Assembly: GCA_003194525.1 (NCBI GenBank)
Contig: NBIV01000031.1
Span: forward strand, 62,001 to 126,000
Reading direction: 5' to 3'
DNA: 64,000 bases
From: Gracilariopsis chorda
Taxonomy: Eukaryota; Rhodophyta; Florideophyceae; Gracilariales; Gracilariaceae
The position numbers and the translations under genes are program-made. The notes under the pieces are model-generated. The model made no database searches and was not told the DNA's origin. It saw only the letters and a list, made by a program, of their open reading frames with translations. Numbering within the stretch: the first letter of the stretch is position 1; each line of letters starts with the position of its first letter. Of the stretch, positions 11,620-59,759 are shown piece by piece.

Positions 11620-12026
11620 TGCAAAAAAGAGACCCCTGACCAGAGCGCAACAGGGGCGTGAAGGGGTGTTTCAGACGGCTACTTCAAGCTAACGAGATGT
11701 TTCCTCCTCAAGAGGTCTATTGAGCAGTGAAAGAGGTAATTCTGATCCTCACTCATAATTAGTTCTCGAACCTTGAGATGTGACTGTGCAACAAACGTGA
11801 AGAAAGACTGTGAGCACGTTATGTACCGATGCCCTCGAACAAATGCAGCCCGTAGAGAGATGTTAGCTGGTCTCCCAAGAAAATGTAAGGAAAGTATACA
11901 GCAGTTAATCCGACATGAGCCACAGAAGTTCTTGGCCTTCCTGAAAAGAGAAAGCTTTTACTGAAAGCTCTCCTTCAGCTTAGTAATAGAAAGCTGTTGT
12001 CCACAATAAAGAAGAAGAAGAAGAAG
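11620..12026 (+). mobile_element. 5'-truncated LINE remnant, copy A
   Basis: The fragment ends with a protein tail (11773-11964) holding a Cys/His cluster CDCATNVKKDCEH..C and the motif QQLIRHEPQKFLAFLKRES. This is related to the C-terminus of the larger element at 47.9-49.6 kb (RQWPSKFLGFLREE). Upstream reading frames are broken. After the stop codon comes a hairpin (CAGCTT/AAGCTG, 11976-11996, loop AGTAATAGA) and the tail AATAAA(GAA)n at 12005-12026. A non-LTR element is inferred from the 3' anchored truncation and simple-repeat tail. The 5' border is approximate. Confidence 0.7.
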
Positions 12027-12632
12027 CTTAAGTGTTGCTACAGCCAGCCATTCTGCCTGGCACATAATGAATCCAAACGCTCGCTACAGTACAACAAGCT
12101 TCTAAATCTGAGGCGGAATACCATTTTACAAGCGCATTGTGGTTGCATATGTGTGAAGAGATTGTTCATAATCCCATGGTCCCTATGTCATAGTCCTATG
12201 ATGACGAACGAGGCGGTGTCACGCCTTTCAAGGAGAATCACTCCTGGTTCAGATTGAACTCAGCTGCGGCAGGCTCTCACAAACTTGCGGTCAATCATTC
12301 AGTGCAAAACAGATCACGTGGTTCACAATCTTATTCTCCCTCGATCGCACCTCAATCTGCCATGGTGAGGGAGGGAGCCCAGGGTTCTGATCTTGGCTAC
12401 AATATAGCACAAAAGTTATCTTTTGAACTCTTTGGGTGTTGAGGGTTTTCGATAGTGCAGGTTTCAGGGGTTTTGTTTCTTACTGATTCCTGTGGGTTCA
12501 CTGTTCTTGCCAATACCACCTGCCGTTCGAGCACAAATTCATCAAGAAGCGGCTAAAGCAGGGCTACAAATGTATTGCCTAGTTAAGCATAGTTCATCAA
12601 CTCGTTTCAACTCTAACGCATGCCAGACAAGC
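12027..12632. other. Intergenic region, no gene seen
   Basis: Nothing recognisable lies between the retroelement tail and the stop codon of the DUF1963 gene on the other strand. Confidence 0.35.
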
Positions 12633-13616
12633 TCACGAACACTGAAAAATCGATGATATCGGGAGCGACTCACAATGGGTGCAAATGAAAACGTAAACTC
12701 TACCGGCATCACCAAGGCACAAGCCAGAGCCCTCTATTGAATCGGGGATTCTCAATCCAGTCTCATCCCTCCGAACATCACTCGGTGCCCAACGGTACCC
12801 GCTGAACCCGTCCCCAACGTCGTCACTTGATACGGTCAACAAGTACTGCATATCTCGCCCACACTCGCAACTTGGTTCCCATGGGTCTTGCACCCATGAA
12901 GGGAAGCCACCAACCTTAGTGCCCGGACCCTCAGCGAAAAGAGAGTACGCATCCTCCCGGTAGCCTGGCAGGACTCTCAGCGCATCCAGATCTTCCTTTG
13001 CGTTTTCGTTTATCCAAGCGCTAATCTCGTCTATGTTTTCAGGCGTTGGGTCTGATTCAGTGATGCGTTCAGGGTAAACAGCACATTCGTTTGGAACTTG
13101 TTCAGGATACTCAGCCTCAAACTTTTCATCGATCCATGGTATACTCTTCAGAAGAGAACCAAGACTAGTTGAGCTTCGCCATCGGGTGATGACCAGTGGG
13201 CCATATAATGTGGCTACATGGTCGTCCGGGCACCACAAGAGCTGAAACAAGTCCAAGTTCATTGGAAACGGCAGTTCAGGCACATCGTTTTGCGTCAACT
13301 GAATCACGAGAACGAAGGGCTTCTGGTGGTTATCGCAGTTCGGCCACTCTTCCCCAACTGGCCATGCAGGCTTGCCTCCTACCTTAGAGGCAAGTGGGTC
13401 TGCAACATGTTTGCGACGGGGATGTAGTAATACTGCGTTTTTTGTCGCAAGAGGGAATTGTGTGGTGATGTCAAAGTGCGGCTGATAGGTGCGTGGTGGC
13501 CAGGCGCCGCTGTCTGGACGCCAAGTGCTAGGATCACTATTTCCCTGGGCAGGCATCAAAGAAGGCAGTTGCTCATAAGACAATGCTCGGGGTTGACCGG
13601 TTTGCTCTCGATACAT
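12633..13616 (-). CDS. DUF1963 (YwqG-like) protein
   Basis: This is a single exon of 327 residues, starting at the only in-frame ATG (a TAA lies about 16 codons upstream). It belongs to the DUF1963 family by its pattern: KVGGKPAWPVGEEWPNCDNHQKPFVLVIQL early, the matching KVGGFPSWVQDPWEPSCECGRDMQYLLTVSSDD later, and GDAGRVYVFICTHC near the end. The repeated KVGG-P-W signature with Cys pairs (CECG; CTHC) is typical. The molecular role of the family is unknown; bacterial members are small cytosolic proteins. Acidic regions separate the two halves. Confidence 0.8.
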   Translation of the reverse strand: MYREQTGQPRALSYEQLPSLMPAQGNSDPSTWRPDSGAWPPRTYQPHFDITTQFPLATKNAVLLHPRRKHVADPLASKVGGKPAWPVGEEWPNCDNHQKPFVLVIQLTQNDVPELPFPMNLDLFQLLWCPDDHVATLYGPLVITRWRSSTSLGSLLKSIPWIDEKFEAEYPEQVPNECAVYPERITESDPTPENIDEISAWINENAKEDLDALRVLPGYREDAYSLFAEGPGTKVGGFPSWVQDPWEPSCECGRDMQYLLTVSSDDVGDGFSGYRWAPSDVRRDETGLRIPDSIEGSGLCLGDAGRVYVFICTHCESLPISSIFQCS

Positions 13617-14424
13617 ACGACTGATGAAGCAGCAGCCTTCTGCAAACGCAACATATGTTTATGTACCAAGGTTTATATCGAAACGGTAAAGGGTGAGCGT
13701 TCTATCCCTGGTTAAAAGGTTGTCCTTATAACCCTTTCGCTTTATATCCACAACAGGATGAAGTGCCTTGAAGGCCTATTGGGCAGGTATGAAAGTGCCC
13801 GATTTGGTAAGGTTTGAGCCCGTACATATGCATGCAATGATGTTTGAATTGATGCACTGCGGGACCGCAGTACGACCGCAGTACTGCGGAGACAAACTTC
13901 GTCTGGTTGATCGCACTAATGCTCTTAGAGAACGGGTGTGTACCTCAGAAGAATAGCGAGATACAACCCTGTAGTCGCTGCTTATATGGAGATGGGATGT
14001 TAATTCGATTTCTGTTTGAACTGCGATAAGCGATCACGCGGGAACAGGCCATCAGTTGGCTCGCGGTGGTGTATCGAACTATCTACAGATACTAGTCAGG
14101 GTGAAACGAAATGGTTCCACAAATGAAGCTGCTCTGGGAACTTAGCCTTCAAGGCAGAGAATAGCTTATAGAGTTTGTCGTGAAGTCGAGAACGTTACGG
14201 TTCGAAGCAATGACAAGCTATCAAAACTCTATCGTTCGAAGCTATGCCGCGTTTAGAGCTGCAGCGCAGCGAAATAGATTGTTCAGTGTAGACTGTGAGG
14301 CAATCCAGAAGAAGGCCGCAGTTCGTTTGTTTGTTTGTAAACGTGGGCTCAGGAATCCACCAACGATAACACCATATCGGCTCTTTTGTGAAAACCTTAC
14401 GTTCCCCTGACAGGTAAGCCATAT
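13617..14424. other. Intergenic region with CCGCAGTACTGCGG palindrome
   Basis: There is no supported gene. A 14-bp perfect palindrome at 13876-13889 is preceded by a direct half-copy CCGCAGTAC at about 13865-13873. It lies about 260 bases upstream of the DUF1963 start, so a regulatory role is possible but untested. Confidence 0.4.
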
Positions 14425-15259
14425 TCAAGGTGGCTGGTCTTCGTGGAAGTGCATGTCGCGGATCCATTTCGCTTCTTCGGGCGGGAGGAACGCTTCGTGA
14501 AGGGGGTTCGCTTGTGTCCTGTAGTTCGATGTGGTTGCTTTGAAAAAGCTGTGAAGGAAACTGTTTCCAAACAGGTGATACTCTTGTCGGCATGACTCAG
14601 GTAGGCGGGGAAGCAGATGCTGTGATACACGTTCTGATAAACTAACATGATGGACATGACAGCTCTGCGCGATGATAACATGTCCAGCCCATGCCACACC
14701 ACATATGTTGCCGCACGTCTCGAACAATTTCTGTGCCAGCTCTTCATTTCTGGTAAGATCATCGTGAGGAAGTGTAAAACAGCCTTGCTTGTTATGGTAA
14801 TACGGTAAAGGCTCGTTCTGATGAATTTGATGAGCAGCAGATGCAGCCAGAACTAAAGTTTCAGCGCCTTACTCAACAGGAAGCAAAAAAAGCGATGCAA
14901 TGCCCTTCCTAAAGGACGGAATGTTGGCCAAGTTGGAAATAATAACTGCAGGATGTACACAAAACAATTTCCATAGAAACAGCACGCCGGTCATTTCGCT
15001 TCTTCAAATGACGAGCCAACAAATGTCTAGCCAGCCGTGCTCGTGCATATGTCTGCATGTCTCCAACAGACGAGCGTGGACTGGGCGGTGCAATAGACAT
15101 GGCATAAGTATCACCAGTACGCCTAACAATACGCCTCGGTTGAAGCAGATGTATAACTTTACGATGATCGAGAGCTTGACCGCTGCGTTCAAGACCAGAT
15201 GGGTGCATACCGGCATCACAGGTGAGCACGGCAAGCGCAGCGAGTAGGAGAGATCGCAC
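14425..15259 (-). CDS. Possible two-exon secreted protein, family not recognised
   Basis: Two adjacent minus-strand open frames look protein-like. The upstream one (from 15259) begins with a signal-peptide-like stretch RSLLLAALAVLTCDAG. The downstream one (about 14850-14425) contains LAASAAHQIHQNEPLPYYH, CGVAWAGHVIIAQSCHVHH and ends PPEEAKWIRDMHFHEDQPP. A GTACAT donor near 14960 and a CTTTAG acceptor near 14851 would join them in frame. No ATG is found for the signal peptide, so the 5' end is uncertain and a further exon may exist. The last ~30 residues resemble an orphan exon at 59760-59915. No catalytic motif is recognised. It could be a decayed gene. Confidence 0.25.
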
Positions 15260-15945
15260 CTTATTTGCACATTGATCAATTGACCATAAGTGACATGCAG
15301 AATTTGTGTGGATGCATACGAGTGGAAAATGGCGCCGGCAGCATGGGTGGATTTGCCGGGGTCTCTCGCCAACAAGTCAAACTAACCTTTGCTCCGAAAG
15401 AAGCAAGACGAAGCGCGGCACAAACAGAGGCGTGTCATGACGCTCGGAAGGCGGGGCACGACGTGCAAGCGCCGTCAAATAGTCTTCGGATAGCGGGAAG
15501 CTCGCAGGACAACACGGCGAGAAGTCCGCAGAACAACACGCTCGTGGTCGTACACTTTACGTGCTCCGAATACGGGCGCACAAGAGTCTCGACTCGACAG
15601 TGGACAAGCAAGCGTCCGCTGACCCACGAGGGGGCGCGCAGACGGGCGGTCACGCGACTTTAAAATCGCAAAATGTGCCAAGGCCGCAACGCTTATGCTG
15701 CACCCACACGCTCGAGATGCATTCAAAACGCATTGTATCTACCCTTGGTAGAGTTACGGAATACGCGCGTTTGCAGTCGAGTGTGAACGCATGTCAACCC
15801 TTCACCCAGTCGAGCGTCACCACCACTTCCCAACTTGCGGTAAACTCTTTCGACACACCCTTCTCCCCAACTGCCTCTCCCCTATTTACGCCAAACCTGC
15901 ATTCCATCCCGACAGGTAGCCCAGTTTCTCACACAACCGCCTCCT
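15260..15945. other. Upstream region of DCP2
   Basis: This is the divergent spacer between the possible secreted-protein gene and DCP2. Short overlapping frames are present without domain support. The 150 bases before 15946 are C/T-rich, as in other gene starts of this window. Confidence 0.35.
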
Positions 15946-17412
15946 ATGCCTGCCTCCCGCACCCACGCAAACATGTCCGCTTCGAAGAAATCCGCAAGCA
16001 CCCCCGAGTTACTAGAGGTGTTAGACGACCTCTGCATGCGTTTCCTAGTCAATCTACCCGCCGTAGAATACGAGTCTTTTGAACGATTATTCTTCGCAAT
16101 CGAGTCCGCGCATTGGTTTTACGATGATTTCTACCGTGATAACAATCCATCCTTACCACGCCTTCCCCTCAAACACTTTGCGGCCCGATTATTCGATCAC
16201 ACATCCCTGCTAAAGCGCTACCGAAATGACGTTGATAAACTCGTCGCTCAGTTTCAGTCCTATAAGCAAGAGGTGCCTACTTGTGGAGCTGCCCTGCTAA
16301 ACCCGCATATGGATAAGGTCTTGCTTGTTCGTGGATGGGGTCCTACAGCGCGCTGGGGATTTCCAAAGGGCAAACTCGCAAAGGACGAGACTGAACTCGA
16401 CGCCGCCATCCGAGAAGTACGCGAAGAAACTGGTTTCGACATGTCACCCTACGTCAACGACAACACAGAATATCTTGACTCACTTTCCAGCGGCCGTCCC
16501 TGTCGAATCTTCATCGTTACCAATGTGTCGGAAGACATCAAATTCGAGACGCAAACACGAAAGGAAATCTCCGATATCGAGTGGGTTCCCCTCTCTGCCT
16601 TGCCGGATTCACCAAAGGCCGCAAGGCTGCTCAACAAACAGGCGGAAGCTGAAGCCAAGTCTTCCCCGCATCGAGAAAAGAAGAAGCTCTTCTCACAGAA
16701 CGGCGTCGCTGCGTTTACGAAGCGCCTCAAGTCCTGGATTTCACGAAGGAAGAAGGAACTGCACGATACACGGTCTCAGTCCATGCCGAACATCGACTTT
16801 CAATTCAATATGGCCAATGGACGCGATCATGTGCTCTCAGCCATGAAGACGAAAGATACCAAGCGTTTGTCGCAGGAAAAGGGAAGGGCCTCTCCTGTAA
16901 AAGAAACCAATGCGAACGGTACACAACACAAAAAGAAGACGCCGCAACGACGGAAAAACGCAAAAACCAAAGCCAACAGCTCTTCTGAAAATCGGGGAAG
17001 CTGTCGAAAGTCTCGAAAGGATGCCGCTCTGCAAGAGGCTCTTCGAAACATGGCCACATTCGGTACAACCGGCGGAACTGCTCTCAGCGACTCGGAAAAG
17101 AAGCAACTGTTTCGGCGTTACGTCTTAGAAACCGATCGCATAGCGGCCGAAAAGGGTCTCAAAGACGAGTTTTGGCCTGTCCCGTATATTACGAGCAAAG
17201 ACTTCACGGAGGAACAGTTGCGGGAGGCGGAGGCTATGCATTTGTCACAGATGCCCCCGAAGAATCTCTTTGGCGACGCAGATAAACCTGAAACAAAGAG
17301 AAAACGATCGTCTGTGATTAATGATCTGTCTAATAAGGGAAAGCCGGCGGAGGCTTTTGTATTCGATCGAGACGCGATTAGAGCTGTGATGAAGGCGAAA
17401 AGCCCGCCTTGA
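15946..17412 (+). CDS. DCP2: mRNA-decapping enzyme DCP2
   Basis: The 488-residue single-exon protein removes the m7GDP cap from mRNA in the decapping complex with DCP1. The N-terminal alpha-helical regulatory domain (about residues 20-105) includes the DCP1-contacting block HWFYDDFYRDNN and LKHFAARLF. The Nudix fold follows at about 110-215, with a perfect Nudix box GX5EX7REVREETGF starting at G142; the glutamates bind catalytic metal. Box B lies at about 220-230. The C-terminal half is basic and disordered (RKKEL, KKKTPQRRKN). It ends PAEAFVFDRDAIRAVM, which resembles the short C-terminal helical motif of plant and animal DCP2. The start ATG fits the family N-terminus. Confidence 0.93.
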   Translation: MPASRTHANMSASKKSASTPELLEVLDDLCMRFLVNLPAVEYESFERLFFAIESAHWFYDDFYRDNNPSLPRLPLKHFAARLFDHTSLLKRYRNDVDKLVAQFQSYKQEVPTCGAALLNPHMDKVLLVRGWGPTARWGFPKGKLAKDETELDAAIREVREETGFDMSPYVNDNTEYLDSLSSGRPCRIFIVTNVSEDIKFETQTRKEISDIEWVPLSALPDSPKAARLLNKQAEAEAKSSPHREKKKLFSQNGVAAFTKRLKSWISRRKKELHDTRSQSMPNIDFQFNMANGRDHVLSAMKTKDTKRLSQEKGRASPVKETNANGTQHKKKTPQRRKNAKTKANSSSENRGSCRKSRKDAALQEALRNMATFGTTGGTALSDSEKKQLFRRYVLETDRIAAEKGLKDEFWPVPYITSKDFTEEQLREAEAMHLSQMPPKNLFGDADKPETKRKRSSVINDLSNKGKPAEAFVFDRDAIRAVMKAKSPP

Positions 17413-18679: not shown

Positions 18680-18824
18680 ACGACGACTTGGATAAAGGAT
18701 TGGCTTGCCACAGCCTTGAAGTGGCCGTTCTTGCTTTTCAAACCCTCCCACCATAAAAAGAAAAAACCTCTATCAGTATGTCGTAATCAGACATATTGAA
18801 CCCAAAATAAAGAAGAAGAAGAAA
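18680..18824 (+). mobile_element. LINE 3'-end remnant, copy B
   Basis: The tail carries the hairpin TATGTC/GACATA (18777-18795, loop GTAATCA), followed after 10 bases by AATAAA(GAA)n at 18806-18824. The same arrangement occurs in copies A and C. A decayed coding stretch upstream can be read as KDWLATALKWPFLLF, comparable with the KDIIGQWPQGFLG region of copy C. The 5' border is approximate. Confidence 0.65.
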
Positions 18825-19142
18825 CCCTCCCACCTCTCCACACGGCTACACATCCATCAATCATGGATTGTGCTTGTGAATACTCTTCACATGCCTGCAA
18901 ATACTCTTTGCAGGAACTGGTACGCACGCCAGCAATGCTCGACCAAATTATTTAAACAAGGTTTAAATTTTAAACTTTAAATGTTCTGGCCACTGAAAGT
19001 GTGCAAGAATAAAATGCTTCAATCTGCAAGGTATGTGAATTTACAGTTAAAAGAAAAAATAAAAGTGGACTTGTGCGAAAGTTGTAATCACAAAAATCAA
19101 CAGCCTTTGAAGGTCGCGGTTTCCTTCGTGCAAGAAGGCTTC

Positions 19143-20638
<1,496 letters not shown>

Positions 20639-21232
20639 AACTCCATGGGAGACGCACTTGGATCCGACAGCGGGGTGGGCGCCTTGCGGGATTCGCTGGC
20701 CTTCGGTGCTGGACTGGGCGAATCAACTTGCATTTTGACGGGCTGCGCGGGGTCGGGCGACGGATTAGTGTCGGGCAGCGCGGCGCGAGCGCCTCCGCGC
20801 GGAGCCATCACTTTTTTGCCAAGCCCCATCACGTCGCAGCGTGCGCACTCGAGACGAGGACGCGCGAAGCGAAATCAGCGCGCGCAGCGCGCACAAACAG
20901 GCGCACACTTCTATAGGCTGCGAGCATCAAGCGCGCAGCGCACCACGTGTTCGGCCTACAACAAACGCGAAACGTGTCCACCGACAGCGACGGCGCGCGC
21001 CGCAACTCTCACTCGGCCCGCAACGGCCCCCAAGAAGCAGTCAAAACCGCTGCTGTAAGTGGCCTGAGCAACCGCCCCGCGCGCACATGCATTACACCGT
21101 TGATCCGCACTCCCTCCCGCTGCCATTTGACGCGCTGCGTCGTGTCGTGCAGCGCCGCGCACCGCGCCCTTTGCCACCGCACCGCCGGCTCGCTCTGTTC
21201 CCGTTCTCCACGCGTCCCCCGTCCGCCGCCCG

Positions 21233-21266
<34 letters not shown>

Positions 21267-21436
21267 CCGACGCGCTCCCCCAAACCGCCCCATATAACAC
21301 CACTCTCTCCCCCGCGACCACTCTCCCTTCCCTCCTCCTCTCCCCCTTCCAACCAACTCGTGCAAGCCACGCACCCCCCACAAACCCCTCCACCCTCCCC
21401 TGCTCTGTCGTCTTCGCCACTTGTTCACGTGCTCCA
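20639..21436. promoter_or_regulatory. Divergent promoter region of the MYST and PUR genes
   Basis: These 800 bases separate the oppositely oriented MYST and PUR starts. The right part is strongly C-rich on the plus strand and includes a 33-base C tract. Long open frames here are low-complexity shadows. Part of the left side may encode a longer MYST N-terminus. Confidence 0.5.
21233..21265. repeat. Uninterrupted 33-base C tract
   Basis: Positions 21233-21265 are all C, about 170 bases upstream of the PUR start codon. A G-rich complementary strand of this length could fold into G-quadruplexes. Exact length is doubtful in any assembly. Confidence 0.9.
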
Positions 21437-22239: not shown

Positions 22240-22487
22240 GAGTATGCCTTTCCTCACACTGCATGCACTCACATTTACAAACATTCTTGGGTAGACGCCT
22301 GCCTATATCCTGTGTAGCCCTTTCGTGGGACACCTTCTTACAAACAAACTACCTACCAAAAAAGACCTTCTCAACAGAGTGCTAAACATCTTCCTCCTTG
22401 CTGTTGTCTCTGTATCTTCCCGTGCCTATTCCCTTTGCCGTTTCCCCTACCCCGATCATATATACTGCTTTCTTCGTGCTAAAACGT

Positions 22488-30024: not shown

Positions 30025-31194
30025 CTATACCCGCGATTTAAGGGTAGTAACGAAAGGTCTTGCGGAATCAACTATAATTTCGACCATGCTTCTTACGGAG
30101 GCGAAGAGGGATGTTGGTAGCAGTTTGTACATTCCTCGGACAGGTGTGAGGAGCAAGGATGCCGTGACTGGCGGTGCAGCGCTAGTCCAAGTCGTTGCAA
30201 GTATTCCATTCACCACAATATTTCCATCCAGTGTCTGTGGATTGTGAAGGCCTTTTGCGAGCACTATTTGAATATCAACGATTCTGTCTTTGGTTCCAGA
30301 AGCAAGCGTAACCGTGTCACCGACAACAGCTGCAGCCGCCGTTTTTGTCTTGTCGTCGACAAACAGGTAATGCCCTTCAGAAAGCAAAAGGGTCTTGCCA
30401 GATCTCGTTGAGATCTTCACGAAAGTTGCTGCAACAGATTCATCCTTGTGGGTGAACATGAAAATATCGGAGTAGGTGCCGTCAGGGGAGCTCAAAACTC
30501 TATCTCCAACTTGGAGTTCTTTCATAGATACAATGCGACCATCTTCAGTACTCACAAAAGCATCGTTCGGGAAACATGATCCCGTGTTCTTGTCTCCTTG
30601 GTGGTCGTTCTTTTCTTTTTCTTCGTACGCTTCCTTCTGATCCTGTTCTTGTTTGTTTGACAGCTCCAGAGGGACATGCAATTTCTTTTGATACATGCAG
30701 AAATCGCTAAAGTGAGAGTAAGTGACATAAATGTATCCCGGATGGATTTTGATACCCAACTCTTCATCTTTCACAGTGGTGTCATGCATATTCGTAAAGA
30801 ACCAACTGATTGCACTCGCATTGAATGCCCACGGACCACAAACGCGGGGAGCACTTTCTACGCCAGCAAAAAAGAAGACATCTTTGTGAGACACATGAGA
30901 TGGGAGGGACAAACCCATTCTTAGTATGTCTGTTCCAGGCTCGACCCTTTTTCCTCCAGGTCCCGTACATTTTACACCTTCCACTTTCATTGAGCCAGCA
31001 GGAATGACACGGTTTTCACCAGAGACCTTTTCATAAGAGACAGTAAGTGGACATGCAGACGGACGACCTGCAGCGAGTTGGTAGTCTTGGAGAATAGTCG
31101 CCATTGAAAAGTCCGCCCCCTTGACCACGTGAAAAAGAACAACCAGAAAGACAAGAGTGAATTGAACGCCATGCTTTCTACCAAGCAACTTCAT
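30025..31194 (-). CDS. Secreted protein with Hedgehog-type Hint (Hog) module
   Basis: The 389-residue single-exon product begins with a clear signal peptide (FTLVFLVVLFHVVKG, residues 12-26). A novel Cys-containing N-terminal domain follows (about 27-175), then a charged linker rich in K, E, D and Q, then a Hint module from C207: GSCFPNDAFVSTEDGR, MKELQVGDRVLSS, LLLSEGHYLFVDD (His275), GLHNPQTLDGNIVVNGILATTWT. In Hedgehog the equivalent Gly-Cys-Phe is the autocatalytic cleavage point and a TxxH histidine assists; here Ser precedes the Cys and SEGH replaces TxxH. Red-algal and other protist Hog proteins are known, with unknown function. The N-terminal domain has no Hedge signalling sequence. 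It may self-cleave, releasing a secreted domain; this is inference. Confidence 0.85.
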   Translation of the reverse strand: MKLLGRKHGVQFTLVFLVVLFHVVKGADFSMATILQDYQLAAGRPSACPLTVSYEKVSGENRVIPAGSMKVEGVKCTGPGGKRVEPGTDILRMGLSLPSHVSHKDVFFFAGVESAPRVCGPWAFNASAISWFFTNMHDTTVKDEELGIKIHPGYIYVTYSHFSDFCMYQKKLHVPLELSNKQEQDQKEAYEEKEKNDHQGDKNTGSCFPNDAFVSTEDGRIVSMKELQVGDRVLSSPDGTYSDIFMFTHKDESVAATFVKISTRSGKTLLLSEGHYLFVDDKTKTAAAAVVGDTVTLASGTKDRIVDIQIVLAKGLHNPQTLDGNIVVNGILATTWTSAAPPVTASLLLTPVRGMYKLLPTSLFASVRSMVEIIVDSARPFVTTLKSRV

Positions 31195-32219
31195 ATTTCA
31201 CGCTCGACACTTCACGCGCGTTGCAGTTCGCAAGGAGCAAACAGGAGAACTGCGCACTTTCTCAAATGGCGTATGGCTTCTATGCTTCCAACTAGACTTG
31301 CTGCGTGGATTCAGTGTTGAAGTATAGCCAATATAAACGAACAAACTTTTCGCAAAAGGACGGATACGCTGTTAGGTTCAAGGGGCAAGACCGAAGTATG
31401 TATGGATGTTTATGGGCGCACGCTACAAATTCCGAAACCGTGAAAGGAGTTGTTGTATTGTCGCCGAAACAGAATGCTTATCAAAGAATTTCTCTCTCTG
31501 CAAGTATTCCAACTCTCTCTTCGGGCCGAAGTATGGCCAAAGTTCTGTCTAATGCACGTGTGTATATCACGTACATCACATCTGAATGATATGGGCCATG
31601 TTTCTTATTCCGAAAGCATGCTACGGCTTCCTTTTCTGCGAAGAAGCATTCTCTATGAGGTAGGCAGGTATTGCCTAGACCATTGAGTACATGCACGGCA
31701 ATAAGCGCCACCTATTCCTCTACGTGTAGAGGCGTTGTATTCAATGGGCATAAAACTCATGGGTTCTTCCTGCGAAGAAACTGGCACACTCACCATTACA
31801 AACATCAAGATCTTTCGAAATTTAGTATAAGATTGTTGGCACACATACTTTCAAGAGGATGAAACCGTCTGCACAAACCAGTATTGCTTGCTCTACTTTG
31901 GACCGTTTTTCTAGCACTGACGCTTCTCCGGCCCGACAGTCTTGTCCTTTGCTCGAGCATTTTCGAAGAACACCGTTTCAGTCAGCTGTCCGGCTGGTTT
32001 AAGTAGGATTGCTTCTACAAACAATAGAAAGAAGAACAAAGTCAAACCTAATCGCTACTTGGGAAAACTAGTTCCTTTTAGCAGACCTAATCGTTGATCC
32101 ATTTGGATATGTGTGATATGTCTCCTGTTACTACGTTCCGTAATGAGACGAGAGATTAAACAGGGCATAGAAAACTGTAGACCACTGCGTGCTATCGTGT
32201 CAGTTGACAACTCAAGCTA
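31195..32219. other. Intergenic region, no gene seen
   Basis: No domain-bearing frame is found between the Hint gene start and the retroelement fragments. The first few hundred bases are the upstream region of the Hint gene. Confidence 0.35.
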
Positions 32220-32378
32220 CGGGGAAAACTTACCTAGTTAGCTTGAGAGAAGGGGAAAGTCCGTCAAGGATATTATTGGACAATGGCCGCAGGGGTTTCT
32301 TGGTTCCTGCGAAAAGAGAGTATCTCTACCATTGCGTCGTAATCAGACGATAAGGGCCCACAATAAAGAAGAAGAAAC
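32220..32378 (+). mobile_element. LINE 3'-end remnant, copy C
   Basis: A decayed C-terminal peptide reads GKSVKDIIGQWPQGFLG, close to GKSVKEMIRQWPSKFLGF of the element at 48.0 kb. It is followed by the hairpin CGTC/GACG (32335-32349, loop GTAATCA), GGGCCCACAATAAA and a short GAA tail ending near 32378. A frameshift in the last codons and truncation show it is dead. Confidence 0.75.
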
Positions 32379-32794: not shown

Positions 32795-32945
32795 TTCCGG
32801 CCAGAGGAGCTGTCTCGCCATTTTAACCCTGGCTCGTCAGTGGCCGACATCATTTTTAGCCTTCATAAGAAGAGAAAAATTCTTCCAAGAAGTTCTACGG
32901 CTATTTCGTGATCAGGCATCGCGGACACACAAGAAGAGAAGAAGC
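32795..32945 (+). mobile_element. LINE 3'-end remnant, copy C2
   Basis: A reading ARQWPTSFLAFIRREKFF again matches the conserved C-terminal motif of the family. The downstream hairpin region is degenerate (TTTCGTGATCAGG) and the tail is AAGAAGAGAAGAAG. It lies about 420 bases after copy C in the same orientation. Confidence 0.6.
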
Positions 32946-42900: not shown

Positions 42901-45547
42901 ACTGCTCTCTGTGACGAATCCACAAGCGGGTCTAGTTCAGTCTTCATCTGGAGAGATGTACGCGGAGTCCGGGGCTATTGCGCTCACCATAAACCGCAAG
43001 ATAACGAACGGGGACATTGTGATGATACAGAGCTTTCAATCAGCTATAAACCCGTTCCATTTATGCTTTGAAGACAAGATAATCTTAAAGATGCTTCGCT
43101 TCCTTTCTGACGCATCCATTGTTGGAAGCAGTACCCCTATGGATGTTGGTGGTAGGACTGATGGAGATTTTCGTATCTTCCAAACTTTGTTGCCTACTTC
43201 ACCTAACTCTGGTGGCAACCTTGCAAGCCGAAGACAGGTTGGAAGCCTTCCCTCTTCACGTCGTATATATGTACATGATTTCAAAATCAACAGTTCGTTA
43301 CTTCGTCTAACGTCAGCTGGAAGCGGTGCCGCTGTTGCGAAAGCAGCCGGGCTTGGTCTAACGGTGAGCACTATCTTAGGCCTCATTTTGAACGTTGAGA
43401 ACTGTGAATTTCAATTAGCGGCTCTACAGGTGCAGAATGTCTTTGATTCATTGCATCATTTCGCTGCTCTGGTAAGGGAGTACTACATGACTCAGTTAAG
43501 CAACCAAAGAATGAAACTTCTAGCATCAAATGCGCTTGTGGGAAATCCTGCAGCTTTGTTTGATGCTGTAGGTACTGGTGCCAAGGACTTTTTCAATGAA
43601 TCTGGAAAGGCAAAAGGCTCTGCCGAATTCATTGCGAGCGTTGGTCGTGGTTCTAAATCTCTGCTTAGTCACACTGTGGGTGGAATCATGGAATCAGTCA
43701 GTGGCATTCCTCGCGCAGTGTCCTCAGGTCTTGAAAAAGCTGTAGGCGATAACGCTTATCTTGCAGAGCGACAGCGAATCCGAATGGGAAGTGGTGCCAG
43801 AGGCTCAGCTTCTAAGAATCCTGCACAAGGTTTTGCTACTGGCGCCCTATCATTTGCTCACGGAATTTCGTCGGGGGTCACTGGTTTCATACGTGAACCG
43901 GTGCAGGGGGCGAAGCAGGGAGGTGCAGGAGGTCTGCTTAAAGGAATTGGAAAGGCTTTCATTGGTGGAGTTGCCAAACCTGTGGCTGGAGCTATTGATT
44001 TTATTGCGGAACCGGCTGCTGGTTTATCCCGGCAAATTGCGGACGATCGCGCTTGGGTGCCTTCTGTGGTAGAAAGGCCGCCCCGTGCTTTCCGTGGTGA
44101 AGGCAAGAGAGTTGAGCGGTATGACCGTCGTTTCTCCATTGGAGTTTGTCTTTACAAAGCCGTCAAGGAATACAACAGCATAACATTAGACACAGGTTTA
44201 ATGGACTGGGTAGAACTAAGTGACCGAGACGGTCGTTCTGATGCGGATTCGGATCTATGGGCATGGGAAATCATTAGACAATACGCTCGAAGTATGCCCG
44301 GCTGGAAGAAAGCTCCAAACACCTCACAAAGGGGGTCGCGAGCTGCTTCGAGTACGGAGACTCGTGTGGAGAAAACCAGAGTAGCGATGACAACGGATTC
44401 AGACATTCTAGTCGCCACGTTAGACTGCAAATTGGTCGCATGGATATCGCTTTGGTGCGATGCTAACTATGACGTCTGGAGTGATGGCAAAGATGTTGTG
44501 ATCTCTGGGAGGATGGGAGAAACCCAAGGTGGAGAAGAGACTCGTGGTGGAACAATTGGAGGAAATCTTGTCAACGCACCATGGGATGCCCCGTATGTTG
44601 AGCGTAAACGGCGCCCACGTGCTGGTGAGCGGTTCGAGGAACGCGTTACATGCGGATCAGCGGCTGCGAGTGATGACTTGCGAAGACGTGTTGTGCAGAC
44701 TGTGCGTTTACTTCAGGAAGAGCGCGAAGCAAAGCCAGGTATATGGAGAAGTGCCAACGATGCCTCTCAAAGTCTGGAATTATTTGCACTTGGCAGTGGA
44801 GGCGAAGGTGACAATGAGATGAAGATGCAAGCTGGTGTCTCTAAGAGTTCCGCTGGAGCATTGGAATTAGGGAGACTCGGACGTGCCGCTTCGGGGGGCT
44901 GGCGTGGAAGAGGTGAAGCATTACAGAGGGACCGTAGATCCGCAAGCTTAGAACGGACTGTACGCAGGCTAAGCAGTTCGAGGCGACCATCTAGGCGCGG
45001 AGGGCTACGATTTATAGTCGTGAACAAGCTGGAGACGCACATGACTCTAGTCATGCGCGAGGAGCAGTTGTATGGTACGACATGGAGTGGGAATCTTGCA
45101 CGAGAAATTGAAGCATTTGATGCGCAAGCAATTGAGACAAAGGGTGTGGAGAATGGTGATGAAATAACAGGCTGCGTTGTCTATGCTATTGTAGACGAGA
45201 AGAAGGAACAAGTTGGGGAGGTGGCCATTGAATTGTTCTGCGGACGAGACAGAGCAGCATCATTCACAACGAAATCAAGTGTTGGCTTCCACGCAACGTT
45301 TGAAAGAGAAGGAAGTCATGGCGCATTTGTTTTTGAAGTTCATCAGGCTCCAGATCAAGAACAAGAGAGTGAATCTGAAAGGCGTATGCCGGAAAACGTC
45401 GAAAGGACGCCTGCAGAGACTGTGAGTGATGAAAACATGGTTCAGCAGCTGGTTGACATTGGCTTCTCTCTGGATGACGCTGTCGTAGCTCTAGCTGAGG
45501 CAGACGGGGATATGGTCAAAGCAGTGGACATTCTGACCAGAAAGTAG
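33938..45547 (+). CDS. VPS13-family bridge-like lipid transfer protein with C-terminal UBA
   Basis: A single 11.6-kb exon encodes 3869 residues. The N-terminus is the chorein domain (MLESVLADVLTNVLGQYLEGID, then GAWSGLVELRSVALRPEAL and VPWNAIGTTPVQITMEDI). Beta-strand-rich repeats that form the lipid groove follow. The mid-C-terminal region (about residues 2000-2900) carries the VAB-like repeats, then the DH-like/ATG2-C segment near residue 3200 (NPAALFDAVGTGAKDFFNE, GLLKGIGKAFIGGVAKPVAGAIDF). VPS13 proteins move phospholipids at membrane contact sites. The last ~40 residues (VQQLVDIGFSLDDAVVALAEADGDMVKAVDIL) form a UBA domain, an unusual end for this family. ATG 33938 matches the family start exactly. 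No frame break occurs along the whole length. Confidence 0.95.
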   Translation: MLESVLADVLTNVLGQYLEGIDRESVSFGAWSGLVELRSVALRPEALAVLFETLGINLPVTVEAGFIGLLRLTVPWNAIGTTPVQITMEDITIMARPVRGDGSDDSELELRERRIKRARLATDDAVREASWGVSSETESKPTASWSSWLVSDELRARIIDNIQVHLKDIIIRFEDPFSDSRRPYFTSLVCQSLKIVSANEKWEEAFVERDNDSRTRKLIEVKGFHIDWAPITPMNEPGLSRGTSDHTSTDSKPFQTLEMLKQFITRETNILPSDYEQAGLSSLIMPVDGFMRILLSPNHELEISSVDLHELKPAVDLDIRFPSVTCNLNDVQYTSLLQTSVYLARISTRGIRPKSPKLRWLWAVDQLLPGFSARRARVLRLSERGIAATGSKRVLYSALRKSLLKARRTGLEEPKEIAQQLENLEACTDYDEVIAFRDWVDREVEADGVEWHSEKNEGKPTSTQQDGTTTSTFWRMLGYGNQQSQGSISTVAKLETNETKVLDKLSNPQEVKSGNQSSKMEHQSVLSLRVAFVLHGVTVNLDEGGFPQRSRPRLSLSLQNLRVGFLLSSAEDLIAEAVLGSVEVWDVAKSIPLVYNRFQVGERQQPFLPDSIQSAYPTDVGEAIESIRDGSNPASDVLMQEDTYQDYESESLMTDVIADLNCPRSPSSSRTNSASPSRSGRRRGKSRISMSRDLTPPTFRVTEDEFLGSSKGTSSFRSNAAAFRYIKRKTRAGGEGPTAPATSLDVSIATLEAVVDGPKGSFVWGLKFWRPRGLAQDPIMAFLGAAAGAQIAELRMEIEEALLANKVPLQINAVILAPRFIIPGASEQSPSIVVNMGILGVCTSDHSPTFTSDEREVSRRRVRYSNYVMTLDNLGVYFCPDLKTAASKSLERRTMSVGNPDLLLGRDFAGVDTTGVERIIRPFSLRFMLQTLRDASVVQVAHHPSRDGTWEEDKIAKVRIRGRVPEVSLILSQGAFQHLLVTVEKWSRELLPKPTEDLNQNQSSAHSWPISSLSERSSLRQIPVQGSRRLSESQRHEGQILEALPTALASYDIRVLLKKVSIELQERANVRLLTVTASQLEGNITKTRRTNLQAWFSLQSWSVTDSSRGSTAAYRRLAYAGNLSGSKGVSPPRSLSGASDAHEQDVEEDKNFITVRYNLDFGTKRQRIQFHFLSLHVICVRETYIRLAKYFRTVRKYVKANRFRGASPPEYTAVVEDKEPVLWDGTSSPSASETPRTQTGLGVFETYISSEFDGLNCQLIASGGVVALLEMKESKIQYHRGKRNVTKAWGECRYFTVQDLTSPLRDHVSVITYEKPDLSVDEMFGTNLDNQSTRDHTADTRDEWVLSIPHSKNGDYNLRANFRGIKVTFLYRFCDVISQYFRVLWDHLKPILDLIADTHETLQTDAQTGHPNSLNQQASKLGINLGLDDLSVRLPRHSACSSEAVNIHVPSVRVSNSVIDDEEVVWKCSFSGAQFATEYILQNISTGPVSVSSSFLTDFMAEFVAKSVNQSSLFSSSSSPRTEILFNAYKGLCMNLSEAQYTILYFVMTENLAETVTELDLSLGIDSPDHEIPDEAREGRIDNTKASDFKQESFLPIADGDIDPQLDTSKDSSLETITLVASAPMFILEVSRGWDVAQESCKILGVRLKNCKMVLRRFIPARLVFEVDAKLLSLEDLRSESTRRMREFAVPLSMGVEPGSMSSARTTDSLQNFSIVYDKLGADRPAIVMLLSRLQIDMPLDLLRDLTYIAIPGWPFLSSSAFPPEFTYIGRTLNIVLSDSQLLLQTHQHYNDRRALAMVGEFEVKMEWMRHTGAKIVSLQTRQMEISCVGEIQSLEEEHDILGAKSLSAKPIEASKTPLLYPTNCFVEYVGPDVDDNGCRLSLTSDSFLCLINVGDIQLLQAVGEAVLRKRDSYISTRNWKHPAGFPGQFSAEMNPKKERRRKALKSMSVSVTISALRGILSDHSSGQFIPVLETKLSSLRFNSHGESIFQVEGEVSMDLFNSEKGWWEPALEPWQLSASMSQGLSGSVSYVIRSDQRANFNITPTTITALPTVLRTLSAASAKTSNPTKLHSQRLRLYGADTARRPAVAAFFVKNELGIPINMNLPSTSHRLTISHGSEIEIGAQSESLVSSGADDLDKSRESALRCSLTVSSYFSKTVSAGEVGLFPLTFFPTGGGKDELIRKPLYALWEVRMSNGVPLCTVRSQYRVINQTKCSMGLLISKEEVQTSEKNVLGDGIIRLEQGESFSVPIQDIKSGIAIRPFNPMGNEGSSIFDWSMPLPSMKWLRRMARMSQQTAESKTSQKRKQRSYSQDVFVSCKALGGSQCDFFVKVVPNSSHLFGTNRPLKHGWIDVSLLAPVVLQNNLPRSVYYKVSRNDKFGLHQSESSDGFGETIFAAGRVNPFEAEQLHFSGENMNYSLLSLAFDNVQTSPNRRRISIPEFGPPINLSDVESGKVKAIFSSPDKGSTDSRKQARKDFRCLVYPDKSISGKFSVSAGVWVRNRSDTTLEICSRGSFYAGGSQSIILRQRPPFEEPDEYVCFEGPYLSVRIPANGREQSFDNDLDSSSWWTTPSSLQDMKKPVAVNVCRRSLILDVRPADGIEQTKIVTIRNQSWILNSTMKPLQWCQASSLDAHGNCPTRSVSMLDPGRASAVHWETRSSYKAVHLRLSTEDGYSDWIWSPAVPLNIGFSRELPAKMYRPKTHEQHIARVDSKKIGGGSRALIIFPEDRQNPPYRIVNFCTERAVSFAQIGSHERPWLVRGGKSTRYSWDDPLAPPGKRMLSVRILERKDLLEARSGLAHPAHEAFDLSIDVLGERVLVLSEGYDPKVVISVSVQGATKIVTFADEGSDVESHSPKKVAMETRNSTQTVPAPVPVVAWDDISHTTNRDGSLPVDRNQKESLATLSDYPPKPKGTPQRPDIGTSSNSNTAVYLNSIGVSVIDAEPSELIYARAHGILMNVETNSDAQVVSVHIQEFQIDNQLHQTIYPVLLSVTNPQAGLVQSSSGEMYAESGAIALTINRKITNGDIVMIQSFQSAINPFHLCFEDKIILKMLRFLSDASIVGSSTPMDVGGRTDGDFRIFQTLLPTSPNSGGNLASRRQVGSLPSSRRIYVHDFKINSSLLRLTSAGSGAAVAKAAGLGLTVSTILGLILNVENCEFQLAALQVQNVFDSLHHFAALVREYYMTQLSNQRMKLLASNALVGNPAALFDAVGTGAKDFFNESGKAKGSAEFIASVGRGSKSLLSHTVGGIMESVSGIPRAVSSGLEKAVGDNAYLAERQRIRMGSGARGSASKNPAQGFATGALSFAHGISSGVTGFIREPVQGAKQGGAGGLLKGIGKAFIGGVAKPVAGAIDFIAEPAAGLSRQIADDRAWVPSVVERPPRAFRGEGKRVERYDRRFSIGVCLYKAVKEYNSITLDTGLMDWVELSDRDGRSDADSDLWAWEIIRQYARSMPGWKKAPNTSQRGSRAASSTETRVEKTRVAMTTDSDILVATLDCKLVAWISLWCDANYDVWSDGKDVVISGRMGETQGGEETRGGTIGGNLVNAPWDAPYVERKRRPRAGERFEERVTCGSAAASDDLRRRVVQTVRLLQEEREAKPGIWRSANDASQSLELFALGSGGEGDNEMKMQAGVSKSSAGALELGRLGRAASGGWRGRGEALQRDRRSASLERTVRRLSSSRRPSRRGGLRFIVVNKLETHMTLVMREEQLYGTTWSGNLAREIEAFDAQAIETKGVENGDEITGCVVYAIVDEKKEQVGEVAIELFCGRDRAASFTTKSSVGFHATFEREGSHGAFVFEVHQAPDQEQESESERRMPENVERTPAETVSDENMVQQLVDIGFSLDDAVVALAEADGDMVKAVDILTRK

Positions 45548-45843
45548 CATCGAAGGTCGATGATCGATCATGCCAACGTTCGCATTGCTTCGCTTCCCCT
45601 CATATCTTATAATACAGTATGTAGTACTATTTGTTCTCTGTACAGCAAAGTTTTGAAATTTAAACCTATCTTGTACGTTTGAATGCCAGACTGCGGGGAT
45701 TGGGAATCTGTGTGCAATCGGACAGCCTTTTGTCGCCCGACGAGTGAGCGAACGTTGAACTCGCGCATCTCTTCGCATAGTGCCACAAAGAGTCTGTTGA
45801 ATATCGTGTGTGGCCCAACGCTGGAAACATTTTTCCACCCGAA

Positions 45844-47595
45844 ATGACCGAAGATCAGGCCCCCGGCCATGCTCCTGAAAGCACAGTTCTAGAAATCCAT
45901 GACCTCCGCGCCCCGCCTCTGTCAGGCATTGCACTTCGCGCGGCCGCGTACACGCTAGAGTTACCCTGGCTGGGCGCACTGCCTCGCAAGCTCCTTCTGC
46001 GATCTTCATCCATACTTGTTTGGCGCGCTCAGAACCCCTCAACATCCCGATCCTTACCTACTTTTCCTACTCACCCACCTCCCACATCAAAATCAGCTAA
46101 ACCTGAAACGAGCGACCTTAACCAGCTTTTCTACACATTAACTTCGCCTAATCCACCTCAGAGAGATCACCTCTCTCTAGCTTGTTTACACCATGCATAC
46201 GCCACTGCCTCTTCCACACCCACCTTGGTAGTCTCAACACTCGAACGCCTCATTGAAGAGTCCAATCGCACAGAACCGCCGTTGAACGCACTTCGTTCCC
46301 CGCCTCCCGAGCACCTGCAAACAGAGATTCAAGCTTCTACAGAGCGATGGGCTGCTGGTCGTCCACGTTCAGTTCTTGATGGTGCTCCGTTCTCTGCTAA
46401 GTTCTGCATAGATATTGCAGGCTTACCCTCATCCGGCGGCACCCGACATGAATTCACAATTGCCACTAACGATGCCCCCGTTGTTTCCGCACTACGCCAA
46501 CTGGGAATGCTTCCAATTACCAAATCAAATCAGGATGAACTTGCTTTGGGAACACGCGGGTTATCGCAAGGTGCTGGTTCCGTACGGAATCCTCATAACC
46601 CGCTTCACTGTCCAGGTGGTTCTAGTGGCGGTTGCGCGTCTGCAGTAGCTGCTGGACTTGTACCTGTATCCCTAGGGTCTGACTCAGGTGGTAGCGTACG
46701 CATTCCCGCTGCCTGTTGCGGTGTTTTTGGACTTAAACCCACTTTCTCACGGATTTCTGCGCATGGTGTTATATACGAACCAGATAACGGGCCTCCTTCA
46801 CCAGCTCGAAGCTTGGGCGTTCTTGCAGCCAGAGCTGATGACTTAGCTCTCGTTTACTATGCTCTAGCTGCCTGGGCTCCTACTCCTGGTGGTGTTCCCG
46901 CGAAACCCATACCAACAGCAGTACTGGACAACGTGAGAGGACTTAAGATCGGTGTCTATGATGCATGGAATGCAACGGCTTGGAAAGGGGCTCGTGATGC
47001 CACAGAGAACGTCTTAAACTGTATGCAGGAAGGGGGCGCAACCGTGAAGAAGATTTCGATTCCGCATCTAGAGGGCATTAGGGTGGCAAATTCTGTGTCT
47101 CTTATGCGGTATACCATTGACAGTCTTTCAAAAAGTGGGGTGTACAAACCATCTACAACAAATCCCGTGCTTGGATATGGGGTGCGCATGAAGTTGGCTG
47201 TAGCGAGGGAATTTACTGCCGATGACGAAATACGTGCACGTGTGATCAGAGAAGAAGCTATGAAGCATGCGGCGCAGCTCTTTGAGCAAGTTGATGTTAT
47301 TATTACACCAACCCTAGCCATACCTACACCGAAAGTACCGTCGGATGTTGTGAATGGTGATATGGATATTGTGACTGAGAGTGCTATGATGAGGTTTACG
47401 ATATACGCGAACCTCACAGGACTTCCGGCGCTCTCTTTCCCAGCAGGGAAGGACGATTCTGGCCTTCCTCTTGGTGTACAGGCCATCGCTGGGGCCTGGA
47501 ATGAAGATGTGCTGATTCGCATTGCTCGATGGTCAGCACAGCAGTTTGATCCATGTGTGCCAGAGAAGGTTTACAATGTGCTGCACGACCGGTGA
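45844..47595 (+). CDS. Amidase signature family hydrolase
   Basis: This 583-residue single exon has the full amidase signature: Lys186 in [12 protein letters not shown], cis-Ser261 in [15 protein letters not shown], and nucleophile Ser284 in [23 protein letters not shown]. The spacing (K, +75, +23) fits Ser-cisSer-Lys hydrolases. A C-terminal block [14 protein letters not shown] with PLGVQAIAG is also typical. The substrate cannot be told: fatty acid amide hydrolases, indoleacetamide hydrolases and GatA relatives share these motifs. The N-terminal ~60 residues include a hydrophobic, Leu/Ala-rich segment ([23 protein letters not shown]) that could associate with membranes. The ATG at 45844 was preferred over an upstream GTG. 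It lies 296 bases after VPS13 on the same strand. Confidence 0.88.
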
Positions 47596-47880
47596 TATGC
47601 CCCTCAAGGCATACGAGTGCTCTGAGGATGAAAGTAGATGTACTGTGTGTAGAAAGGGCGTAACAAAGTGTCAGGACTATGAGCTTCGCAACCAACTTCG
47701 GCATCAGGAGTTCTAAGACCCATGCAATCTATACAAGTGGGGTGTCTTGAATGTCCTTCTTAGACAGATGTGTGTGTGTTTGAGAATGAGAAACTATTGT
47801 AATTTTGCATAACCAGGGTTCAGATTTGTACAATCCATTAGGGCATTCCTACTCTTGCGCGCAAAGCCCAAAACGTAAAT
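47596..47880. other. 3' flank of the amidase gene
   Basis: No feature is recognised apart from a short TG repeat (TGTGTGTGTG near 47768). The retroelement tail of copy D begins immediately after it. Confidence 0.35.
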
Positions 47881-49555
47881 AGTCTTGTTGTTGTTTACTA
47901 TGGGCCCTCAATGCTTAATTACTGCATTGTGGGTAGAAGTATCTTCTAAAGATGCTTCTCTTCCCGCAGGAAACCAAGGAACTTGCTTGGCCACTGCCTA
48001 ATCATTTCTTTGACCGACTTACCCCTTCTCACTCGCGGACTAGGAAGATGATCTCTTCTAGTCCGGTTGATCAACTGGCATCGCAGCACGTAATGTTCTA
48101 CGGTCTTCTTCGTTCTTCTTGAGCATTCACACCTTACTGTTCGTTTGGTGAGAAATGATGCAACAGGATGAAACGTTGAAACATGACCTGTATAGAACTG
48201 AGCTAAAATCACCTCTGCTCTCCTAGCTTCAATGTCTGTTTTCAGGAAGTCAGGTTTCTCTGTGAGCAAGCTCAGACGATGTGGCGTGTTCATTAACCGT
48301 GCTTTCACGTCAAGCATGTCGATCGGGACGGTTATTTGTGATCTCAATGGTAGTTCCAGACCCGTTTTGGCCAGTTTATCAACGCGTTTGTTCTTCTCAA
48401 TACCAATATGTGCTGGGACCCACGCGATGTGCACTGCGTGTCGTTTAGAGACCTCACTTAGTAGCAACGATAGACGTTGAACTGTTGCACACTGCCTTCG
48501 AACCGATGTTTAAAGCGATCTCATCAGGCTTTGCGAGTCTGTGAACAGTCGTACTGTGCCTGAAATTCTGTCGCGGGCCGTCCACAAGGCGGCCTCGATT
48601 GCGTGTACCTCTGCGATGTAAGAGCAGACTCCTACACCTGCTGCGATAACGCCCTTTTCCGGTTCGTTCTGTGATCCTCTCCACCAGATCTCAAATGCAC
48701 TTGCCCCAACGTCTTCAATGTTGAGGAATCGGGCTGGTAGCACGTGTCCATCAGCATCTTCCACCGTCCCGTCCGGTTCAATGGCTTTGTAAGCCATGAA
48801 GAACTCGTCGTCGTATTCAATCCAAAAGTTCGGAGGAGCTCCGCGGCTTTGTAGAAAACGTTCGACGCATTCCTGATTTCCAGAGGCATTAACATCGTAT
48901 CTCAGTGAACCTGCAAACCATCCGTCGTCCCATTTCACTGCCACTCGTAGCGCTGCAGTTTGCCTCAATGACTCTGGACTATTACCTACTGATCCGTCAC
49001 ACCATATATCACACATCGAATCTGGAAGACTTTGCATCATTTCTTCTACGGCTTCGTCTTGCTTCTGCTTATCGTCGCTCTTTCTGCACTGCGTAAAATG
49101 GAAGAAAAGGTTACTCATGTTAGTCAATCCGGGTTCGGAGGGTAATGGGGTCCTCGGGAGCTGTAGTAGACCTTTAGCCGCTAGCCTGTTTTCTGCTTCT
49201 CGCTTAAGCGTAGAACGCGTCTTGCGAATCCTCATCGTGGACAGATTGCTTATTGCCACCTGTAGCGGCGTTTTCTGACTTGTTCTCGCTGTTTTCTCAT
49301 ATAGTTGCGCTGCTTTCCGAATACCAATCTCTCTCATTGATAGTATAGGGACCAGTTCGCGAAGAAGATCAACCGGAGATGACTCCAGACATCCTGTTTG
49401 TATTCGTAAGCCTTCGTTTCGTGCTCTTTCTAGCTTATTAACTCCGGATTGTAAGGCATTTGGAACAACCGTGCCAGCTGCATATCCAGCGATTGACTCC
49501 GCAAACCCTGTCCTTATCGTATCAATTGTTTTCCAGTCGGCTCCCTATGTTCTGC
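47881..49555 (-). mobile_element. LINE remnant with RT C-terminus and RNase H, copy D
   Basis: This is the longest copy, on the minus strand. From 49548 downward the frame reads KLERARNEGLRIQTGCLESSP, typical of the tail of a non-LTR reverse transcriptase. An RNase H domain follows, with the acidic residues in DIWCDGSVGN, the E in AEVHAIEAALW and the D in LFTDSQSL. The frame breaks near 48500, and a second frame (48467-47946) continues RNase H (HIAWVPAHIGIEKNKRVDKLAK) and ends in the Cys/His cluster CECSRRTKKTVEHYVLRC and RQWPSKFLGFLREE. Then come the hairpin CAATGC/GCATTG (47909-47929) and a (CAA)n-type tail at 47881-47900. The 5' truncation (about 49555), stop codons and frameshift make it inactive. 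Confidence 0.85.
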
Positions 49556-59650: not shown

Positions 59651-59759
59651 CCCTTCCCGCAAGTATACATGCTTGGTGTCAAAGACGTGTGTGAGTGTGT
59701 ATGTTTAAGGGCACGCGCCTCCGATTCCGAAGCAGCGGTATTAACTTTCCAGAAGAAGG

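Follow-up and report, generated by a model that had tools for sequence, protein, structure and literature searches.

The analysed stretch of DNA (the window, 64,000 nucleotides (nt) of a contig of the red alga Gracilariopsis chorda) contains four 3' ends of long interspersed nuclear elements (LINEs), copies A to D, each closing in a hairpin and a short repeat (Table 1). A preliminary description of the window had placed four paired stems there, and all four lie where it put them. GTAAT occurs in every one of the loops and is followed by AATAAA (copies A, B and C) or TAGTAAA (copy D) and by GAA or CAA units. The order proposed for all four copies also included a coding tail and a stop codon, and this part does not apply to copy B, a 69-nt insertion without a coding tail. 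As copy B is so short, hairpin and tail make up most of it, and it is the smallest insertion. All four copies are real, and two weaker ones, E and F, had been overlooked.

Table 1. Coordinates of LINE 3' ends and associated features in the window
Feature	Position	Strand	Details
Copy A, LINE 3' end with C-terminal coding remnant	11768..12025	+	left edge from the match to L132
Copy A hairpin	11976-11996	+	stem 11976-11981/11991-11996; loop GTAATAG 11983-11989
Copy A 3' signal and tail	12005-12010	+	AATAAA; (GAA)n up to 12025
Target-site duplication, left of copy B	18740..18752		AAACCCTCCCACC, 13 nt
Copy B, 5'-truncated insertion	18753..18821	+	69 nt
Copy B hairpin	18773-18799	+	10 bp; stem 18777-18782/18790-18795; loop GTAATCA
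Copy B 3' signal and tail	18806-18811	+	AATAAA, then GAA tail
Target-site duplication, right of copy B	18822..18834		AAACCCTCCCACC, 13 nt
Copy E, weaker candidate	31396..31447	-	hairpin CACG/CGTG (covariance-model match 31409-31447), loop GGAATTT, TAAA, CATA-type tail
Copy C, coding-tail remnant	32160..32376	+	left edge from the match to L019
Copy C stem	32335-32338/32346-32349	+	loop GTAATCA 32339-32345
Copy C 3' signal and tail	32362-32367	+	AATAAA, then GAA tail
Copy D, two open reading frames (ORFs)	47885..49337	-	ORFs 48510-49337 (RNase H region) and 47946-48467
Copy D stop codon	47946-47948	-	
Copy D hairpin	47936-47909	-	stem 47929-47924/47914-47909; loop GTAATTA 47922-47916; TAGTAAA, then CAA tail
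Candidate target-site duplication of copy D	49570..49581		AAGACTATTTAC, second copy 47875-47886
Copy F, weaker candidate	59686..59742	-	hairpin GCTTC/GAGGC (covariance-model match 59704-59742), loop GGAATCG, TTAAA, CATA/CA tail

The whole genome (91.3 Mb, 1081 contigs) was searched with the C-terminal protein of copy D, the search that the preliminary description had suggested. A total of 150 of 907 candidates were scored, and all 150 matched. Because a protein served as the anchor, the copies (L numbers below) were picked by coding sequence and independently of the hairpin. A strict rule demanding loop, TAAA and repeat was satisfied in 122 of the 150 ends, and a relaxed placement rule put several loops wrongly. 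We kept 111 ends for training, re-placed all ends by a scored rule and placed three by hand (L040, L041 and L053). The loop was finally located in 144 of the 150 protein-anchored ends. No hairpin was in place in the other six, which were two fragments (L114 and L028), one chimera (L154), one offset duplicate (L158) and two deletions (L050 and L128). After seven ends with identical flanks were removed, 137 non-duplicates were left. Three of their rows were retained in the counts despite irregularities. L011 is out of register, and for L057 and L131 the rule chose a hairpin 230–270 nt past the anchor that resembles a second insertion, each of the two having its own hairpin as well. The GA label of L131 is therefore wrong.

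The order along these ends was a variable stem, a 7-nt loop G-N-A-A-T-N-A, a spacer, TAAA and a short repeat. Loop positions 1, 3, 4, 5 and 7 carried the same base in 129, 137, 129, 134 and 127 of the 137 ends, an agreement that is partly due to placement by a loop profile, which favours it. The loop lay 14–19 nt upstream of TAAA (111 training ends), and TAAA was in range in 119 of the 137. The stems were diverse, with 39 distinct 8-nt 5' arms. On folding, 133 of the 137 ends formed at least four pairs across the loop and the other four formed none; one bulged base was predicted in the common GA-tailed hairpin. The claim that pairing is kept in a LINE context while the stems differ is borne out genome-wide and in copies that do not depend on the window's own four.

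The tail units were GAA (72 ends), GA (35, including the wrongly labelled L131), CAA (16), CA (10) and CATA (4). Tail type changed five times on a tree of the sequence upstream (at most 160 nt). The preliminary description spoke of one LINE family with a GAA or CAA tail. That it is a LINE was right, while the 3' ends represent many subfamilies of one clade rather than a single family, with GA, CA and CATA tails as well. A further repeat type was seen in L201, where CAAA units follow TAAA. Pattern searches of the genome recovered two loop types far more often than their controls: GTAATNA-N10-26-TAAAGAAGAAG had 127 matches (2 for the reversed control) and GGAATTAG-N8-26-TAAANNNANANA had 233 (4 for the control).

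Several tests compared the helix as a whole with a null expectation. In the energy tests, pairs were not required to cross the loop, whereas the counts of pairs across the loop do require it. When the 3' arms of 14 representatives (the out-of-register L011 among them) were swapped, the hairpins with their own arms had −6.26 kcal/mol and the permuted ones −2.71, and none of 20000 permutations was as low. The mean fold energy of the 137 ends was −7.34; simulating independent columns on the tree 200 times gave −3.32, and even the lowest of the simulated values (−6.77) stayed above that of the ends. The helix sum (168.3 versus at most 164.2) and the paired fraction (0.66 versus at most 0.62) were both above all 60 tree simulations. 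For pair counting, 25 representatives were listed, with L011 left out; L081 and L131 were then dropped before alignment, and 23 sequences were aligned. In these, 61.3% of the cells were paired, compared with 45.1% after shuffling (0 of 500 as high) and at most 39.5% after sliding. The covariation score was 0.421, compared with 0.188 for shuffled (0 of 500) and at most 0.172 for slid sequences.

Two new sets of 20 copies each were also folded; all 40 copies were selected for variety among the matches listed, not at random. The first set was found by loop and tail only, so that the 5' arm was unseen. Its own arms gave −6.31 versus −3.45 for permuted arms (0 of 20000), with at least four pairs across the loop in 19 of the 20 copies. 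In the window, a covariance model built from 23 genome hairpins ranked copies A to D first (E 2.6e-5, 2.6e-6, 2.2e-6 and 6.7e-7, respectively). Copy D is in the model (as L009) and copy A is identical to the model member L032, which leaves B and C as the independent cases. Folded as single sequences, copies B (z −5.54) and D (z −3.31) were more stable than shuffles.

Other results weigh against a conserved hairpin with compensating stems. Folded alone, copies A (z 0.34) and C (z −0.32) were no better than shuffles, and the case therefore rests on comparison. The covariation test in the style of R-scape, proposed as a check in the preliminary description, did not come out in favour: in the tree-aware G-test, none of the pairs reached significance (best E 2.7). 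Two of the five pair-count measures were no higher than in shuffles, namely the number of pairs altered at both positions (equalled or exceeded in 211 of 500 shuffles) and that of further pair types (231 of 500), and it is to these two that the pair-counting tool ascribes the lowest risk of false positives. A weaker result came from the second new set, which consists of copies of the GGAATTAG type (own −5.85, permuted −4.78, 246 of 20000 as low). At least four pairs formed in 14 of its 20 copies and none in five (L188, L195, L196, L199 and L200). In the largest GAA subfamily, the second stem position counted from the loop remains an unpaired C/A, and the divergent representatives L024, L127 and L134 paired poorly. 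Finally, L050 and L128 kept TAAA and the repeat tail without a hairpin, through either a later deletion of the palindrome or a hairpin-less insertion. Taken together, helix-level pairing is firm for the GTAAT types and moderately supported for the GGAAT types. Covariation of individual pairs is unproved, and the support reaches the helix as a whole only.

Palindromes in DNA are prone to loss, and the two copies that lost theirs and kept the tail would also suit a hairpin that works as DNA, for example by extruding as a cruciform or by signalling repair or insertion. The stem is short, though, the loop has 7 nt and some pairs are G-U. Moreover, the letters of the loop are conserved, which a cruciform does not need. 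We consider a role as DNA highly improbable.

The 3' ends belong to a diverse clade of retrotransposons without long terminal repeats (non-LTR), with an APE-type endonuclease, a reverse transcriptase (RT) and an RNase H, all of which are encoded by the fuller copies. L159 has an endonuclease frame plus a frame with RT and RNase H (RVT_1 2.6e-35, RNase_H 3.7e-8, Exo_endo_phos_2 1.5e-6). Its top matches among solved structures were a polymerase entry and LINE-1 ORF2p, and R2 was also among the matches. L160 spans about 4.17 kb within a near 11-nt duplication and has a single open frame of 1388 amino acids (aa), with the hairpin present. RVT_1 was found in it at 9.7e-30; the endonuclease domains were below their cut-offs, and RNase H was not recognised in this copy in the Pfam search. 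Copy D contributes part of an RNase H domain (RNase_H 5.9e-7) and the C-terminal region.

Target-site duplications were found for copy B (13 nt) and L160 (about 11 nt), and copy D has a 12-nt candidate, an exact match found on the minus strand at the two places in Table 1 only. Weak 12-nt candidates exist in L161 and L162, and no convincing duplication was found for A, C and L159. The features that define a LINE (endonuclease and RT, target-site duplication and 5' truncation) are thus all present. A relaxed-type LINE in the manner of mammalian L1, with poly(A) and no specific 3' structure, does not agree with the repeat-unit tails. RT matches with an open frame of 1490 aa were additionally seen, with equal score in many copies and several of them near contig ends (for example C215:250, C261:270 and C62:998). 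These copies could be telomeric or could simply lie at assembly breaks.

The position of the stop codon differed between the clades. In L160, the TAG within the loop GGAATTAG serves as the stop, as in 31 of the 35 GA-labelled ends. In these ends, the stop codon lies inside the conserved loop, meaning that the RNA signal doubles as coding sequence. The CATA copy L162 has a frame that continues past the hairpin and ends at TAAA, which was the case in two of the four CATA ends. Where the tail is GAA, CAA or CA, the stop codon was most often situated 19–30 nt upstream of the loop, so coding does not explain the loop there.

This bears on whether the pairing might come from shared ancestry and from coding or composition constraints instead of structural selection. 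The frames extending into the hairpin in the GA and CATA clades would agree with that, as would the small number of independent events (the five tail changes on the tree), the failure of the per-pair tests and the two pair-count measures that equalled shuffles. The whole-helix tests speak against it, namely the tree simulation and the arm swaps, also in the set with the 5' arm unseen. Furthermore, loop and pairing are retained in the GAA, CAA and CA ends in spite of their early stops. On balance, we regard ancestry and composition as a quite improbable source of the pairing.

A second family carries a 3' end of the same kind and no LINE-like protein. The pattern CCACAATGCCGTAATCAGGTAATGTG had 134 genome matches at ≤3 mismatches and none for the control. 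Six copies were compared (L203–L208). They had 128 to 831 nt in common, with the tail at the end, at 92–100% identity. The family is at least 830 nt long, with a LINE-type hairpin and a GAA tail. L206 and L208 share the start bases GACCTGGGATGTC. Duplications flank L206 (11 nt), L205 (13 nt), L204 (9 nt) and L207 (8 nt), and none was found for L203 and L208. The longest frame in the L206 element has 107 aa, and comparison of the family with LINE proteins gave no similarity better than E 0.12.

Nucleotide similarity to LINE parts (blastn) was found mainly in the last 44–54 nt (74–84% identity) among the matches listed, with a best E of 1.9e-6 at the 3' end and few short matches elsewhere. An Rfam search of three copies gave no match. 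A tRNA-like head or B box was rejected, as ARAGORN found no tRNA in the six copies and the only B-box-like word was in L206. The family looks like a non-autonomous element that may use the LINE machinery via its 3' end; it might also belong to a different kind of LINE whose coding part was not seen. A 3' tail common to LINEs and a non-autonomous partner is one mark of a stringent-type LINE and was observed here. Another is a conserved 3' stem-loop adjoining the end, which was found as well.

We consider it likely that the hairpin is a stringent-type 3' recognition signal for target-primed reverse transcription, with a tail made by slippage. That the stems differ and yet pair, around a constant loop, suggests that the copying enzyme reads the hairpin. 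As an RNA signal, it would allow an element-encoded protein to select its own 3' end, at which target-primed reverse transcription would begin. Possession of a helix and the loop sequence G-N-A-A-U-N-A would outweigh the identity of the stem letters. Synthesis of complementary DNA would start in the short repeat after TAAA, and the repeat would grow and drift through slippage, which would leave each clade with its own repeat unit. Stringent target-primed reverse transcription would account for the fixed position, the conserved loop and the free stem letters as well as for 5' truncation, duplications, repeat tails and the partner family. The recognition by RT put forward in the preliminary description has thus gained support, to which the mobile family without a protein adds; protein binding, start site and slippage are what we infer from the sequences.

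The arrangement of hairpin and AATAAA could also be read as a transcription-end, polyadenylation or stability signal of the element messenger RNA (mRNA) and not as an RT signal. AATAAA is the classical polyadenylation signal and is frequent in the GAA copies, and a conserved RNA structure is equally compatible with a role in RNA processing. However, only TAAA is common to the ends, since the GA, CA and CATA ends seen had mostly GTAAA or TATAAA. The tails consist of repeat units and not of poly(A), and the protein-less family has an equal arrangement. Such an mRNA signal is therefore unlikely, and recognition by the element's own RT remains the preferred explanation.

The search of Rfam for LINE-type elements gave no match at the gathering threshold (window and 10 loci) or at E≤1 (12 loci). 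The LINE 3' element families in that database are presumably UnaL2 and R2. SART1 and R2 are site-specific, whereas the algal elements lie at varied places. Known LINE 3' hairpins, invoked as precedent for the window copies, are indeed documented in three papers (PMC4176376, PMC3747384, PMC5135761). UnaL2 of the eel (L2 clade) depends for its retrotransposition on a 3' stem-loop with a conserved loop and on the short tandem repeat behind it, and UnaSINE1 is a non-autonomous partner sharing the UnaL2 tail (PMC5135761). Slippage was proposed for the UnaL2 repeat tails (PMC3747384). The algal elements resemble this pair in the 3' stem-loop, conserved loop, repeat tail and apparent non-autonomous partner, and may function alike. 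UnaL2 has a GGAUA loop and TGTAA repeats, in contrast to the GNAAUNA loop and five repeat units in the alga, where RNase H is present and the stop codon may fall in the loop.

For ZfL2-1 and ZfL2-2 of zebrafish, a bipartite recognition was proposed, general for the stem and specific for the loop, through a basic segment that links endonuclease and RT (PMC4176376). The endonuclease–RT linker of L160 was likewise the most basic of the four parts compared (lysine plus arginine 0.18 versus 0.10, 0.14 and 0.13). This likeness is suggestive only. Recognition in the alga, with another loop and another host and with RNase H present, may follow a similar scheme. The monocot/maize L1 lineage and the short interspersed nuclear elements ZmSINE2/3 have a variable stem with compensatory mutations and conserved loop letters, common to LINE and SINEs (PMC3747384). 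The algal ends are alike in the variable compensating stem, the conserved loop letters and the sharing with apparently non-autonomous elements. The L1-clade members of flowering plants end in poly(A) (PMC3747384), whereas the algal ones end in repeat units.

A 3' untranslated region structure is required in SART1 (R1 clade) and R2, and the I element has a microsatellite-like TAA tail (PMC3747384, PMC5135761); the algal ends resemble the former two in structure and the latter in tail. The principle was thus already known from UnaL2, ZfL2, SART1, R2 and the maize L1 lineage, the latter with compensatory stems. Red algal LINE 3' hairpins were not found in the open-access literature by title or abstract opening. 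As far as found there, the novelty lies in the host group and in the loop, in a single clade with five tail units, in a stop codon within the loop and in the partner family.

If the recognition role is true, stringent 3' end recognition extends to the red algal lineage. One genome would then hold many subfamilies with a common loop but differing stem and tail, and would offer a natural set of variants with which to ask what in a LINE 3' end is read by the protein and how one tail unit turns into another. A trans-mobilisation assay could make direct use of the protein-less partner family. A further-reaching idea, which we offer tentatively as possible rather than probable, is an RT lineage with the fixed loop code G-N-A-A-U-N-A as its sole sequence address. 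Stems and tail units (GAA, CAA, GA, CA, CATA and perhaps CAAA) would drift or be swapped within the clade while recognition is kept, and one subclade would translate the address, with the loop giving the stop codon.

The remaining details concern the single copies of the window and their surroundings. Copy A was 96.9% identical to L132 across 255 nt, and its last 64 nt had 40 scored matches in the genome. Copy C was 73% identical to L019 over 234 aligned columns. The hairpin of copy E scored E 0.0054 with the covariance model, and in the nucleotide comparison copy E itself matched nothing in the LINE set. Copy F scored E 0.63, which is weak taken alone, and aligned with part of L015 across 215 nt at 87% identity. 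Its 3' region (59695-59900, minus strand) recurs in L015 and in pieces in L032; it is therefore part of a further repeat family. By eye, the first catalytic motif in the RNase H region of copy D appeared to be separated from what follows by a long insertion, and similar stretches were seen in L160–L162.

The window is gene-dense, with long uninterrupted ORFs. Both this and seven matches to phycobilisome linkers above the Pfam cut-off agree with a red alga as the source. A segment of the ORF at 30025-31194 (minus strand) resembles, by eye, an autoprocessing domain of the hedgehog/Hint type. At 21229-21265, there is a 37-base run of nearly pure C.

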